Notes under the pieces: generated by a model
Database searches by the model: none
What the model was told of the DNA's origin: nothing
The model's input: the letters and a program-made list of their open reading frames with translations, nothing else
Made by a program: the position numbers and the translations under genes
Source of the DNA: Thermoleptolyngbya sichuanensis A183
GTDB lineage: Bacteria; Cyanobacteriota; Cyanobacteriia; Elainellales; Elainellaceae
NCBI RefSeq assembly: GCF_013177315.1
Contig: NZ_CP053661.1
Span: forward strand, 3,534,001-3,598,000
Length of the DNA: 64,000 nt
Direction of reading: 5' to 3'
In this document: positions 2,989-8,819 of the stretch, one piece after another
How the letters are laid out: each line of letters starts with the position of its first letter
How positions within the stretch are numbered: position 1 is the first letter of the stretch

Positions 2989-3924
2989 ATGATGACCTCC
3001 TTCAAACGCCGCTCATTGTTGTTGGGCACTTTGGCAGTGCTTTTGGTGAATGCCTGCGCGGGTAGCCCGACCGCCCAAAACCCTGAAACTGGTTCACCTG
3101 CCGGAACTGCCGCCCCCTTGGTAGTTGGCTCGATTCCCGACCAAGACCCCGAAAAGGTGCAGCGACAGGCCGAGAAGCTGGCCGCCTATCTAGAATCAAA
3201 GCTGGGCGTGCCCGTGAAGTATCAGCCCGTTACGGACTATGCGGCTGCGGTCACGGCCTTCAAGGTGGGTGATCTAGATCTGGTGTGGTTTGGTGGGCTG
3301 ACGGGTGTGCAGGCGCGGCTGCAAGTGCTGGGGGCCCAGGCGATCGCCCAGCGCGACATCGACGAACAATTCACCAGCGTCTTCATTGCCAACACCCAGA
3401 GCGGCATTGCGCCCTTTACTGACCTCAAAGACCTTAACACGCTCAAAGGGCGCACCCTCACCTTTGGCAGCGAATCTTCTACCTCTGGTCGGCTGATGCC
3501 GCAATATTTCATTCAGCAGGCAGGCATGACGTTGTCAGATTTCAAAGGGGAAGTGGGCTTTTCGGGCAATCACGATGCCACCATCAAGCTGGTGGAAGCA
3601 GGAACCTACGAAGTCGGCGCACTGAATTCTCAAGTCTGGGAATCGCGAGTGGCGGAGGGTGCAGTAGACACCAATAAGGTGCAGGTGATTTGGACCACGC
3701 CGCCCTACTACGACTATCACTGGGTGATTAGCCCAGAGGTGGAAGAGCGCTATGGCCAGGGCTTCATCCAAAAGGTACAGGCGGCATTTACGGAGCTAGA
3801 CCCGGCGAACCCAGACCAGAAAGAGGTGCTGGAGTTGTTTGGCGCGGCAAAGTTTATTCCCACAAAAAACGAGAACTACTCGCAGATTGAGTCTGTCGGT
3901 CGCCAGATTGGCAAGATTCAGTGA
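2989..3924 (+). CDS. PhnD-like solute-binding lipoprotein of an ABC importer
   Basis: 311 residues, the usual length for PhnD/PtxB-type periplasmic binding proteins. The start MMTSFKRRSLLLG is a charged n-region followed by a hydrophobic core, and VNAC at residues 20-23 looks like a lipobox with Cys23, so the mature protein is probably a lipoprotein. The body shows the family pattern: VGSIPDQDPEKVQ, then DYAAAVTAFKVGDLDLVWFG. Such proteins bind phosphonate, phosphite or similar oxyanions; a closely related cyanobacterial group is often labelled putative selenate-binding. The substrate cannot be read from sequence. The stop overlaps the ATPase start by four bases (ATGA), so the genes are translationally coupled. 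Confidence 0.85.
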   Translation: MMTSFKRRSLLLGTLAVLLVNACAGSPTAQNPETGSPAGTAAPLVVGSIPDQDPEKVQRQAEKLAAYLESKLGVPVKYQPVTDYAAAVTAFKVGDLDLVWFGGLTGVQARLQVLGAQAIAQRDIDEQFTSVFIANTQSGIAPFTDLKDLNTLKGRTLTFGSESSTSGRLMPQYFIQQAGMTLSDFKGEVGFSGNHDATIKLVEAGTYEVGALNSQVWESRVAEGAVDTNKVQVIWTTPPYYDYHWVISPEVEERYGQGFIQKVQAAFTELDPANPDQKEVLELFGAAKFIPTKNENYSQIESVGRQIGKIQ

Positions 3925-4682
3925 TGGGCCCGCCCATTTTTTACCTCAGCCAGGTGACGCGCCAGTTTCAGGGGCTCACGGCTCTGGCCGAGGTGAACCT
4001 GAGCATTGCTGCTGGGGAAAGGGTCGCGCTGATTGGCCCCAGCGGCGCGGGCAAGAGTACCCTGCTGAGTCTGCTGAACGGGACGCTGCTGCCATCGGCG
4101 GGGCAGGTGACGGTGCTGGGGCAAGACCTGCGGCGGCTGTCGCCTCGGCAGCGACGGCGGGTGCAGCGGCAAATTGGGACGGTCTATCAGCAGCATCACC
4201 TCGTCACCAATCTGTCGGTGATTCACAACGTCAATGCCGGACACCTAGGGCGCTGGTCGCTGGCCAAGGCCGCTTGGTCGCTGCTGTGGCCCCAGTCGGT
4301 AGAGATCGCTGCACGGGCGCTGGCTCAGGTTGGCATTGCCGAGAAGCTGTATGTTCGCACCGATCGGCTATCGGGCGGCGAGCAGCAGCGAGTGGCGATC
4401 GCCCGTGTGCTGGTGCAAGATCCGGTGGCCATCCTGGCAGATGAGCCGATCGCCAGCCTCGACCCGGCCCGCGCCCACGACCTGATGGCGCTGCTGTGCC
4501 GCCTGACAGAGCAGAGTGGCAAAACGCTGGTGATCAGCTTGCACGATATCGAATATGCGTTTCAGTACTGCACGCGGCTGGTGGGGCTGCGGCAGGGGCA
4601 GATTCAGTTCGACGCGCCGCCTGCCCAAGTGACGGACGCGATGATCCACGAGTTATACCGCCTAGAGCAGCCTGTCCTTTAA
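3921..4682 (+). CDS. PhnC-like ABC transporter ATP-binding protein
   Basis: 253 residues with all ABC ATPase motifs in order: Walker A GPSGAGKST near residue 40, signature LSGGEQQRVAIAR near 150, Walker B ILADEPIASLDP just after, and the switch His in LVISLHDIEYA. It resembles PhnC, the ATPase of phosphonate-type importers. It begins inside the stop of the binding-protein gene and ends 16 bases before the permease gene, so the three form one operon. It should act on the cytoplasmic face and drive uptake through the fused permease. Confidence 0.9.
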   Translation: MMGPPIFYLSQVTRQFQGLTALAEVNLSIAAGERVALIGPSGAGKSTLLSLLNGTLLPSAGQVTVLGQDLRRLSPRQRRRVQRQIGTVYQQHHLVTNLSVIHNVNAGHLGRWSLAKAAWSLLWPQSVEIAARALAQVGIAEKLYVRTDRLSGGEQQRVAIARVLVQDPVAILADEPIASLDPARAHDLMALLCRLTEQSGKTLVISLHDIEYAFQYCTRLVGLRQGQIQFDAPPAQVTDAMIHELYRLEQPVL

Positions 4683-4698
4683 CCGTTTCTGCACCCCG

Positions 4699-6453
4699 AT
4701 GCCCGCTGCACCCACTGCCCTCCCACCGCCTCCCCCCTGGCTGAACCGCCGCAACGGGTGGGGATTGGTAATGCTGGGGGCGATCGCCCTTTCGCTCTAC
4801 GCCACGGGCATCGGACGACCAGACGCGACCCTGGTCAACCCCGGCGGCTGGGGCCAGTTTGTGGAGTTTTGGGCCAGCAGCCTGCGGCCCGACCTCAGCC
4901 GCGACTTTCTAGAGGTAATTGCCAGGGCAACTTTTGTCACCTTTGCCTATGCAGTCTGCGGCACGACCCTGAGCGTGGCGCTAGGGCTGGTGGGCGGCGT
5001 GCTGTCGTCGGAAACTTGGTGGCGGACGGTGTTGCCGAGGGCGGCGGCGGGCGGCGCGTGGGCGGCTCCCCTTTGGCTGCTGATTCGCGGGCTGCTGGCG
5101 GTTCCCAGGGCGATTCATGAACTCCTCTGGGGCCTGTTTTTTTTGAATATTCTGGGGCTAAATCCGCTGGTGGCGGTGCTGGCGATCGCCCTGCCCTTTG
5201 GGGCGATCGTGTCTAAGGTATTTGCCGAAATTTTTGACGAAACGCCCCAGGAACCGCTGGAATCCCTCCTGGGCAGCGGAGTGTCGCCGCTGGCAGCGTG
5301 GCTCTACGGACTGTTGCCCCAGGCGTTTCCAGATTTGCTGTCCTACACGACCTATCGGTTCGAGTGTTCGCTGCGGTCGGCGGCGGTGCTGGGGGTGATC
5401 GGCGCGGGTGGGCTGGGCTATGAAATTTTGCTGAGCCTGCAATCGCTCCGCTATGGGCAACTCTGGACGGGGTTCTATGCGCTGGTGCTGCTGAATGGCG
5501 GGGTCGATTGGTGGAGCAGCTGGGTGCGGCGCAGGTTGGGCTTCACCAGTCGGCTAGATCTCAACGTGGCCCAAAGATCCCAAAATTCCCACGCCCCAAA
5601 GCCCAATCTGCAAACTGCCAATCCCTGGCCGCTGCGGCTATCCTGGGGGGCGATCGCCCTGTCGATTCCGCTCTGCTTTTGGGGATTGGGCATCGACTGG
5701 ACGCGGCTCTGGTCGGCCCGCACGCGACGACTCTTGGGCGACATTGCAGCGGCCGCCACGCCCCAGTGGCCCAGCCCGGCCGAATGGGCAACGCTGCTCC
5801 ACCTGTCGGGCTTGACGCTGGTGATGTCCATTCTGGCGATCGCCCTGGCCGGATTGGGCGGGGTGCTGCTGTCTTTTCCTGCGGCCCAGACCTTTCTCCT
5901 GCCCGGCGGCTGGCTGCGGCCGCTAGACGACCCCACAACGACCCAAGCCCCCCTGGCCTGGCTGCTGCTGGTGGCAACCCGTTTGCTGCTATTGCTCAGC
6001 CGCGCTGTGCCTGCCCCCATCTGGGCGCTGGTGTGTCTGTTTGTGCTATTTCCAGGCATTTTGCCGGGGGCGATCGCCCTGGGTCTGCACAATTTGGGCA
6101 TCCTGGGCCGCCTCATGGCCGAGGTCAACGAAAACTTGGACGAGCGCCCCGTGCGATCGCTCCACGCCCTGGGCGCATCCGGTGGGCAGGCAATTCTCTA
6201 CGGCGTGTTGCCCCAAAACCTGGGGCGATTTCTGGCGTATACCCTCTACCGCTGGGAGGTCTGTATGCGCGAAACCGTAATCGTTGGACTGGTGGGCGCA
6301 GGGGGGCTGGGCCGCCTCCTGACCGAGCAACTCAGCAGCTTTGACTACGGCAGGCTGGTGCTAACGCTGGGGTGCTTTGTGGCGCTCACTTTTCTGGTGG
6401 ATTTGATTAGCCAGCAGATGCGATCGGTCGTCAGCGGCAAAGGGGAGGCGTGA
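4699..6453 (+). CDS. ABC importer permease with two PhnE-like domains fused in one chain
   Basis: 584 residues, about twice the length of a single PhnE. Two homologous membrane domains are visible. The first ends in an EAA-type loop (EIFDETPQEPLESLLGSGVS near residues 175-195) and IGAGGLGYEIL. The second repeats this as VNENLDERPVRSLHALGASG and VGAGGLGRLL. One polypeptide can therefore form the whole transmembrane channel, normally a dimer of separate PhnE subunits. A charged, non-hydrophobic linker near residues 270-305 joins the halves. Third gene of the importer operon; the next gene is convergent. Confidence 0.88.
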   Translation: MPAAPTALPPPPPWLNRRNGWGLVMLGAIALSLYATGIGRPDATLVNPGGWGQFVEFWASSLRPDLSRDFLEVIARATFVTFAYAVCGTTLSVALGLVGGVLSSETWWRTVLPRAAAGGAWAAPLWLLIRGLLAVPRAIHELLWGLFFLNILGLNPLVAVLAIALPFGAIVSKVFAEIFDETPQEPLESLLGSGVSPLAAWLYGLLPQAFPDLLSYTTYRFECSLRSAAVLGVIGAGGLGYEILLSLQSLRYGQLWTGFYALVLLNGGVDWWSSWVRRRLGFTSRLDLNVAQRSQNSHAPKPNLQTANPWPLRLSWGAIALSIPLCFWGLGIDWTRLWSARTRRLLGDIAAAATPQWPSPAEWATLLHLSGLTLVMSILAIALAGLGGVLLSFPAAQTFLLPGGWLRPLDDPTTTQAPLAWLLLVATRLLLLLSRAVPAPIWALVCLFVLFPGILPGAIALGLHNLGILGRLMAEVNENLDERPVRSLHALGASGGQAILYGVLPQNLGRFLAYTLYRWEVCMRETVIVGLVGAGGLGRLLTEQLSSFDYGRLVLTLGCFVALTFLVDLISQQMRSVVSGKGEA

Positions 6454-6502: not shown

Positions 6503-7306
6503 CTATCTCTCCATCATCCCGCTTTCCATCTCTCCGTTCGAGGCGAGCAGCAGTTGCATGACGCGGCTGGCATCTTCGAGCCGCCCAGTGACACGACGGA
6601 CTGGCTCTGGCCAAACCCTGACGAGGGTGGGGGTAGCAGCCACCTGGTCTTGCTCGGCCAGCTCAGGGAACTTGTATACGTCGATGATTTTCAGCGTGTA
6701 GGGCTGCTGAATCAGGTCTTCGAGCAGGCGATGCAGGTTCGTTAAAATCGCCTCCGTCACGTCGCTGTTGCTCGACACATAGAGGCGCAGCACATAGCCC
6801 TGTTTGGAGAAATCCGGCGACTGGGCTTGCCACGATAGCCGACTCCAAGACGATGGCTGAGCCTCTGGCTGGCTGACCTGCTGAATTGTCGGAGATTCGT
6901 AGCAAATCACCAAATCGTGCGATCGCCACAGTTCGGGAAAGCGGCTCTGATAGGTCAGCAGCATCAGCGACTCGTCCAGGTTGTCGGGCGGCTGCACGGT
7001 TTGCCAGAGCAAGTCCCCAGTGCCAAAGACGGCATTCAGCACGGCCTGATGCCGCGCCACCAGGGGATACACCTCAGCGGATGTGAGGACAGACTGGTTT
7101 TCGGGCGATCGCCAGCGGTCGATGGACGCGGTGTACCACGGCACAAGGAACAGCGGCGGCTCCGACAGATCGAGCCACTCCTGAAGCGCCGCGCACAGGT
7201 GCAAATGCCAATGGCTCTGCTTGTCTGGATCGATGCAGTACACCAGGTCGCCCCCCGGCGTAAACAGGGCAATTCCCTTGTATAGCTCTGGTAACGGGGC
7301 TTTCAT
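6503..7306 (-). CDS. Protein with C-terminal KaiB-like (thioredoxin-fold) domain
   Basis: 267 residues. Residues 172-254 look like the KaiB fold also used as the sensor domain of SasA: VLRLYVSSNSDVTEA, LKIIDVYKFPELAEQD, then VAATPTLVRVWPEPVRRVTG. The VxATPTLxRxxPxPxRRxxG pattern is the most telling part. The first 150 residues (IALFTPGGDLVYCIDPD..., FLVPWYTASIDRW...) form a separate domain not recognised here. KaiB binds KaiC in the circadian oscillator. By analogy this protein may bind KaiC or another clock partner, but that is inference. No other kai gene is in the window. The gene converges on the importer operon with 49 bases between. Confidence 0.7.
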   Translation of the reverse strand: MKAPLPELYKGIALFTPGGDLVYCIDPDKQSHWHLHLCAALQEWLDLSEPPLFLVPWYTASIDRWRSPENQSVLTSAEVYPLVARHQAVLNAVFGTGDLLWQTVQPPDNLDESLMLLTYQSRFPELWRSHDLVICYESPTIQQVSQPEAQPSSWSRLSWQAQSPDFSKQGYVLRLYVSSNSDVTEAILTNLHRLLEDLIQQPYTLKIIDVYKFPELAEQDQVAATPTLVRVWPEPVRRVTGRLEDASRVMQLLLASNGEMESGMMER

Positions 7307-7439
7307 GGAAAATCAACCGCCAGGCACAGGGGTGCAGGAATGTGCAAAAACAGGAATGTGCAAAAAAGCGAGAAGGGTAGATCTTTCGCACCCGATACAG
7401 TCCGAAAAATCCACCCCAGGAACCGTTGAGCTTTGCAAC

Positions 7440-8819
7440 TTAGACGCGCCCGCGCAGAATCTGCGCCATTTCGTTGGGCTTGGGCGACATTTCCAGCGCC
7501 GTTTCTTCGGTGATCCGTCCCGCCTCATACAGCTTATAGAGGGACTGGTTCATCGTACACATGCCGTCAAAGTTGCATCGCGGAATCAGCGCTTCCACTT
7601 CGTCCAGATCGCCCTTGCGGATATAGTCGCGAATTGCGTCTGTGTTGATCAGAATATCGTGGAAGGCGGCCCGCTTGCCGTCGGTGGTGCGGCAGAGGCC
7701 CTGCGCGATGACGGCCACCAGCGATTCGGCGATCGCCACCCGCATGGGTTCCTGCTGATCCGGCGGATACAGCCCCAAAATCCGCTCGATGGTCTTCACA
7801 GCGCTGTTGGTATGCAGCGTTCCCATCACCAAGTGACCTGTTTGCGCGGCTTTCAGGGCAGTGTTCACGGTTTCAATGTCCCGCATTTCTCCCACCAGAA
7901 TCACGTCCGGATCTTCCCGCAGCGAGGCCTTCAGTGCTGCGTCAAACTTCATCGTGTGAATGCCCACTTCCCGCTGGCGGATCAGGCACTTGCGGCTTGT
8001 GTGGACAAATTCAATCGGGTCTTCAATGGTGACGATATGCTTGGGCATTTCGCTGTTCATGTAGTCCACCATCGCCGCCATCGTGGTCGATTTACCCGAC
8101 CCGGTTGGCCCTGTCACCAGGATTAGCCCCTTGTGATAGTGGCAGATTTCCTTAAACACAGGCGGCAGGTTCAACTGCTCGATGGTCAAAATCTTCAGCG
8201 GAATTAGACGCATCACCATCGCCGGCCCGCGCAGCGAATCAAAGATATTGATCCGGACGCGGGCGAAGTCGTATTGCGTTGCGCCGTCAAAGTCGAGCGT
8301 GTCCTTAAACCGCTGAATCTCGGCATCCGAGAGAATTTCTTGCAGCCAGCTAAAGAAGGTATCGAGATCGGTGACTGGATACTCGGTCATGTCGATCTCG
8401 CCCCGGTTGCGGAAGCGCGGCGTTTCGCCCACGCCCAAGTGAATATCGGAATAGCCTTTGTCGTAGGCTTCGCGAACGATTTGCGCCAGCGTCGGCTGAC
8501 CGGGTGCAGCCTTGCTGCGGGAGGTCTGCATCGGCGGCGGCGCAGCGGGACGGTGTCCCATCATGGGCGGCGGCGCGGGTGTGGGCGGTGGCTTCACCGC
8601 TGGAGCGCCCATTCCGGGCATTGCACCCGCCGAAGCAGGGTTGACGCGAGTGCCGGGTGCTGTGTTGGCCTGGGTCGATGCGAAGGTTTGCGAGGGCATT
8701 TGCTGGCTGGTTTGCCCCAGATCGCCCATCGGTGGAGCGCTGGCAGGCGGACGACCCGGCGGTGGCGGCGTGCGGGGAACGGAGTTGGGCGGAATGCTTG
8801 GGCGTTGTGCGTCTGTCAT
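7440..8819 (-). CDS. pilT: Type IV pilus retraction ATPase PilT
   Basis: 459 residues. The core from about residue 109 is a secretion-type ATPase: an N-terminal domain with SDIHLGVGETPRFRNRG, Walker A GPTGSGKST at 237-245, Walker B DPDVILVGEMRD, and the His-box region GHLVMGTLHTNSAVKTIERI. PilT hexamers sit under the inner-membrane pilus base and power retraction for twitching and phototaxis. The first ~105 residues are an added low-complexity tail rich in Pro, Ala and Met, absent from short PilT proteins and more like the longer cyanobacterial paralogues (PilT2 type). The paralogue assignment is not secure. Confidence 0.93.
   Translation of the reverse strand: MTDAQRPSIPPNSVPRTPPPPGRPPASAPPMGDLGQTSQQMPSQTFASTQANTAPGTRVNPASAGAMPGMGAPAVKPPPTPAPPPMMGHRPAAPPPMQTSRSKAAPGQPTLAQIVREAYDKGYSDIHLGVGETPRFRNRGEIDMTEYPVTDLDTFFSWLQEILSDAEIQRFKDTLDFDGATQYDFARVRINIFDSLRGPAMVMRLIPLKILTIEQLNLPPVFKEICHYHKGLILVTGPTGSGKSTTMAAMVDYMNSEMPKHIVTIEDPIEFVHTSRKCLIRQREVGIHTMKFDAALKASLREDPDVILVGEMRDIETVNTALKAAQTGHLVMGTLHTNSAVKTIERILGLYPPDQQEPMRVAIAESLVAVIAQGLCRTTDGKRAAFHDILINTDAIRDYIRKGDLDEVEALIPRCNFDGMCTMNQSLYKLYEAGRITEETALEMSPKPNEMAQILRGRV

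Follow-up and report, generated by a model that had tools for sequence, protein, structure and literature searches.

Canonical circadian KaiB is a single domain of ~100 aa. The state of KaiB that binds KaiC is fold-switched and itself thioredoxin-like, and T. elongatus KaiB is shifted to its fold-switched form by the mutations G89A, D91R (PMC6378743). Lateral KaiB-KaiB charge pairs (R23/K26 with E84/D91) are needed for cooperative assembly on KaiC; SasA is without these charges, yet binds KaiC (PMC6769508). A cyanobacterial family called elongated KaiB was described by Schmelling 2017 (PMC5520375), and its KaiB domain was named KaiB-4 by Wayment-Steele 2023 (PMC10808063). According to the latter paper, the NMR structure of the Thermosynechococcus KaiB-4 domain (8UBH) is monomeric, fold-switched and thioredoxin-like, and the biological role of KaiB-4 is left as an open question. 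The same paper describes a KaiB homologue from Legionella which was crystallised in the fold-switched state, is reported not to be a clock protein and is implicated in stress responses. Here we describe an elongated KaiB gene from Thermoleptolyngbya sichuanensis A183 and its conserved pairing with the pilus retraction gene pilT2.

Identification of an elongated KaiB protein

The window analyzed (a stretch of 64,000 nucleotides of the genome) contains at 6503-7306 an open reading frame of 267 aa on the minus strand, with the ATG at 7306 and the stop codon ending at 6503 (Table 1). When the protein was compared with Pfam, the KaiB family (PF07689) matched residues 174-252 with 82.6 bits (cut-off 27) and an E-value of 1.6e-23; VAATPTLVRVWPEPVRRVTG represents residues 222-241. 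An earlier note, made from the DNA sequence, had placed a KaiB-fold domain at the C-terminus of this reading frame, and the domain was confirmed and the coordinates were exact.

Two NCBIfam KaiB equivalog models scored below their cut-offs (73.4 bits, cut-off 110; 72.2 bits, cut-off 145.3), and the SasA-type histidine kinase model gave a weaker match (28.7 bits, E-value 6e-7). The best PDB sequence match was 8ubh (E-value 1e-23), followed by canonical KaiB chains from ~4e-18, and SasA was matched at 0.0014. The KaiB of the same genome shares 43 % identity with the protein over residues 152-251. Thus, by NCBIfam, PDB and own-genome comparison, the KaiB domain is nearer to KaiB than to SasA. The genome also contains kaiA, canonical kaiB and a longer KaiB-domain reading frame that fits SasA, all located away from kaiB-4.

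The protein shares a homologous KaiB domain with canonical KaiB (KaiB1). However, this identity was ruled out by length and architecture, by the missed equivalog cut-offs and by replaced residues, including those of the lateral charges, and the gene lies outside the kaiA-kaiB locus. In the case of SasA, the likeness consists of a two-domain architecture with a thioredoxin-like domain of the KaiB type and the absence of lateral charges. In SasA, however, the KaiB-like domain is N-terminal and followed by a histidine kinase, whereas in the window protein it is C-terminal, no kinase domain was found (Pfam, NCBIfam), and sequence similarity to KaiB is much higher than to SasA. SasA was therefore ruled out by architecture and cut-offs. 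Legionella Lpp1115 (PDB 4KUN) is also a KaiB homologue, but it is a single-domain protein of 91 aa and matched with an E-value of merely 2.4e-8.

The 8UBH sequence is identical in 83/83 residues to the KaiB domain of a full-length homologue (locus L133 of genome G106), which aligns with the window protein over residues 6-253 and whose gene sits behind pilT2. Because 8UBH is both the best PDB match and identical to this homologue, the window protein is, by sequence, a member of the elongated KaiB / KaiB-4 family. Like the family as described (~250 aa, restricted to cyanobacteria), it consists of a conserved N-terminal extension of ~150 aa followed by a KaiB domain, and no difference was found. 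The suggestion in the earlier note that the protein is neither KaiB nor SasA was correct by cut-offs and architecture. The N-terminal domain was also rightly called unrecognised, but the family had already been named (PMC5520375, PMC10808063) and is not new.

Table 1 Features of the kaiB-4 locus (positions in the window)
Feature	Position	Strand	Basis
kaiB-4 (elongated KaiB), 267 aa	6503..7306	-	ORF; Pfam KaiB; homologues in 78/291 genomes
N-terminal orphan domain, residues 1-140, predicted alpha/beta	6887..7306	-	conservation (74 sequences); no Pfam match; AlphaFold2 pLDDT 76.8
Variable linker, residues 141-167	6806..6886	-	weak conservation and gaps in alignments
KaiB domain, residues 168-253	6548..6805	-	Pfam PF07689 residues 174-252; 8ubh match residues 171-253
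133-nt gap between pilT2 and kaiB-4	7307..7439	-	promoter and terminator searches
pilT2, 459 aa PilT/PilU-family pilus retraction ATPase, directly upstream of kaiB-4	7440..8819	-	NCBIfam TIGR01420; Pfam T2SSE
Proline-rich N-terminal extension of PilT2, ~residues 1-100	8520..8819	-	sequence

Conservation and distribution of the N-terminal domain

When 74 sequences were aligned, K10, T16, P17, D20, W33, H34, Q42, P51, F53, L54, P56, A60, W101 and W127 were among the invariant residues, and C38, beside the invariant W33-H34 pair, was nearly invariant (73/74). A profile of the domain was applied to 291 genomes spread evenly over the phylum, and it was found in 78 of them, all belonging to the class of T. 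sichuanensis A183. The separate and conserved N-terminal domain proposed in the earlier note was thus confirmed. A contig scan with six short peptide patterns returned matches in cyanobacteria only.

A Pfam search gave no match for this domain in the window protein and no convincing family for 68 members. No sequence relative was found in the PDB; the best match, stathmin (E-value 0.037), was judged to be due to chance. An alignment of 12 sequences from the window and related loci was used as AlphaFold2 input. The resulting model of the domain was of moderate quality (alpha/beta, pLDDT 76.8) and that of the full-length protein was poor (pLDDT 49). When the domain model was compared with the PDB using Foldseek, no match was significant; the top match, to a cofilin/ADF-H fold (E-value 0.025, TM 0.35, rmsd 11), was not accepted.

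The domain occurs once per genome and always within a KaiB-4 protein (78 genomes), and no free-standing copy was seen among the 291 genomes sampled. An apparent split copy (genome G019, locus L090, 7542-8266), in which kaiB-4 extends over three reading frames, was attributed to pseudogenization or to an error in the assembly.

A stress or redox sensor based on the thioredoxin-like domain, acting apart from both the clock and pili, would be in keeping with the position of C38 next to W33-H34 and with the stress responses in which the Legionella homologue is implicated (PMC10808063). We consider it highly improbable, as inspection of the KaiB domain of the window protein revealed no CxxC motif and the pairing with pilT2 described below would be left unexplained.

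Both kaiA (76/78 genomes with kaiB-4 and 44/60 without; Fisher P value 4e-5) and pilT2 (73/78 and 41/60; 2e-4) were more frequent in genomes with kaiB-4. These tests ignore phylogeny and should carry no weight alone.

The pilT2-kaiB-4 gene pair

The product of the gene upstream of kaiB-4 matched NCBIfam TIGR01420 with 464.8 bits (cut-off 319). It shares only 41 % identity with PilT1 of the same genome, which is encoded behind a PilB-like gene. A proline-rich N-terminus is the mark of PilT2 according to a 2025 review (PMC12288463), and proline accounts for ~28 % of the N-terminal extension in 67 homologues. Because of this N-terminus and the low identity to PilT1, the protein was assigned to PilT2; it is a second PilT homologue located outside the pilBTC locus. 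The extension was similar in genomes with and without kaiB-4, and a role as a KaiB-4-specific docking site is therefore not supported.

In 67 of 74 loci, gene calls placed a PilT homologue upstream of kaiB-4 in the same orientation, and in 64 of these it was the immediate neighbour. Using whole-genome coordinates, the two genes were adjacent in 69 of the 78 genomes, representing 39 of 42 genera and 19 of 20 families. The next commonest neighbour was found in 23 of 74 loci, and no kai gene was among the recurrent neighbours identified in these loci. The median gap between the two reading frames was 90 nt, with 17 of 67 pairs separated by 50 nt or less. In the window, neither a promoter-like site nor a minus-strand terminator-like site was found in the gap, and the two genes may be co-transcribed. 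When 20 pilT2 loci of kaiB-4-negative genomes were inspected, no KaiB-like gene was found behind pilT2 except in genome G212 (locus L166, 3346-3774), where the KaiB domain is intact and the N-terminal domain is eroded.

Other genes recur around the pair. A UDP-GlcNAc 2-epimerase gene (wecB) and the gene of a conserved protein of ~130 aa with no Pfam match, divergent from pilT2, recur in 22-23 loci (L092, 3475-5223, and ~20 similar ones). In the window, a phosphonate-type ABC transporter (PhnD-, PhnC- and PhnE-like by sequence reading; 2989-6453) is convergent with kaiB-4. Its permease (584 aa) seems to consist of two permease units fused together.

The pairing has exceptions. In four genomes pilT2 is elsewhere in the genome (G206, G304, G200 and G017), and in five none was found at the threshold used (G067, G248, G198, G283 and G163). 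In the first four of the latter, kaiB-4 is intact whereas an intact pilT2 is missing. In the reduced genome G163 (2.8 Mb), pilT2 and kaiB-4 are adjoining pseudogenes with stops and frame changes (locus L139, ~7226-8503). Its relative G198 has an intact kaiB-4 preceded by faint remains of a pilT2 that contain stops, and kaiB-4 is also kept in another relative, G283. A further 41 genomes have pilT2 without kaiB-4. Thus, neither gene strictly needs the other.

The persistence of the pair while other neighbours change suggests that KaiB-4 and PilT2 are functionally linked, and the joint decay of both genes in G163 is in line with this. We regard a link to PilT2 or to pili as probable. This conserved linkage also lends indirect support to the idea in the earlier note that another process is tied to the clock. 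The conserved context is the new element, absent from the literature searched. No paper naming both KaiB and PilT2 was found (subscription journals were mostly outside this coverage, and earlier notice is possible). Among papers naming KaiB and PilT, no title or abstract contains the link, and the available text of PMC5520375 and PMC10808063 does not mention it.

The exceptions to the pairing also bear on a different explanation, in which KaiB-4 acts on the clock itself by competing with KaiB and SasA for KaiC CI. The two genes would then be paired through common transcription or an inherited gene order and not through a direct role in the pilus. The four genomes with kaiB-4 and no intact pilT2, and the 41 with pilT2 alone, are in its favour, and a domain held permanently in the switched form would compete strongly, since KaiC binds the fold-switched state. 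Competition for KaiC, as the earlier note suggested, is plausible given the fold-switched structure of the domain of one member, a state that in KaiB binds KaiC. However, inherited order alone is unlikely when the surroundings were reshuffled (other neighbours in at most 23 of 74 loci) and the pair stayed, and competition does not need a conserved N-terminal domain. As an account of KaiB-4 function, we therefore consider it quite unlikely.

Comparison of KaiB-domain residues

Residues are given in T. elongatus KaiB numbering. Across the KaiB-4 family, in contrast to canonical KaiB, G89 is replaced mostly by I, L or M, D91 is replaced mostly by G, A, T or S, and K58 is Q in 75 % of the members. 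The replacement of G89 and D91 fits a stable fold-switched state. The full-length model of the window protein was too poor for this question, and its fold-switched state is expected by homology. A classical thioredoxin fold, named in the earlier note as grounds for rejecting a KaiB-type domain, cannot discriminate here because the KaiC-binding form of KaiB is itself thioredoxin-like (PMC6378743).

The lateral charges are not kept. R23, K26, E84 and D91 correspond to A, T, S and L in the window protein, and R23, K26 and E84 are present in 43 %, 25 % and 29 % of the family. A41, in the KaiA/CikA-binding strand, is T in 97 %. On the other hand, P51, A54 and E55 around helix alpha2, which in KaiB meets the KaiC B-loop, are at least 95 % conserved, and K43 is retained, as is most of the ATPTL segment. 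This pattern could fit a non-cooperative binding of KaiC, although structural constraints may instead account for the retained residues, those of alpha2 included. Binding of KaiC by KaiB-4 is predicted, with the chances for and against it about equal.

The same residues are relevant to the possibility that the KaiB domain has lost KaiC binding and now serves, apart from the clock, as a thioredoxin-like module on which PilT2 or a different protein of the pilus docks. The loss of the lateral charges and the change of A41 are in line with such a module, as are the linkage to pilT2 with no kai gene among the recurrent neighbours identified and the fold-switched, non-clock homologue of Legionella (PMC10808063). 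SasA, however, binds KaiC although it, too, lacks the lateral charges; moreover, K43 and the alpha2 residues are kept, and 76 of 78 carriers have kaiA. We consider a module of this kind conceivable but on the unlikely side.

Proposed function of KaiB-4

Since the KaiB domain is expected to be in the KaiC-binding state and the gene is paired with pilT2, the simplest reading is that KaiB-4 is an adaptor between the Kai clock and type IV pilus retraction, to which we assign a probability of roughly 0.35. The C-terminal KaiB domain would be held in the fold-switched, thioredoxin-like state and would dock on KaiC CI like KaiB and SasA, without the slow fold switch. The orphan N-terminal domain would act on the type IV pilus via the retraction ATPase PilT2, and KaiB-4 would carry the clock phase to pilus retraction and thereby to motility or adhesion. 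That KaiB-4 combines a link to PilT2 or the pilus with KaiC binding is held tentatively. In a more specific form, which we regard as unlikely, KaiB-4 would bridge the KaiC ring and the PilT2 hexamer, and retraction would be clock-gated post-translationally, bypassing SasA-RpaA transcription.

Pilus biogenesis and competence are under clock control in S. elongatus (PMC7125226). In Synechocystis, the response regulator Rre6 in its phosphomimetic form makes contact with PilT2 (PMC7656254), and thus PilT2 can receive signals. Work on punctiforme (PMC6495340) is also cited in support of the adaptor reading, and so is the presence of kaiA in 76 of 78 genomes with kaiB-4. The exceptions to the pairing, the similarity of the PilT2 extension with and without kaiB-4 and the eroded N-terminal domain in G212 speak against it.

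The pairing joins two functional puzzles, the fold-switched KaiB-4 and PilT2, in the question of whether the partner of KaiB-4 is KaiC, PilT2 or both. If both are partners, the clock would have an output that targets a motor instead of transcription. If PilT2 alone is the partner, this would explain the existence of a permanently fold-switched KaiB.
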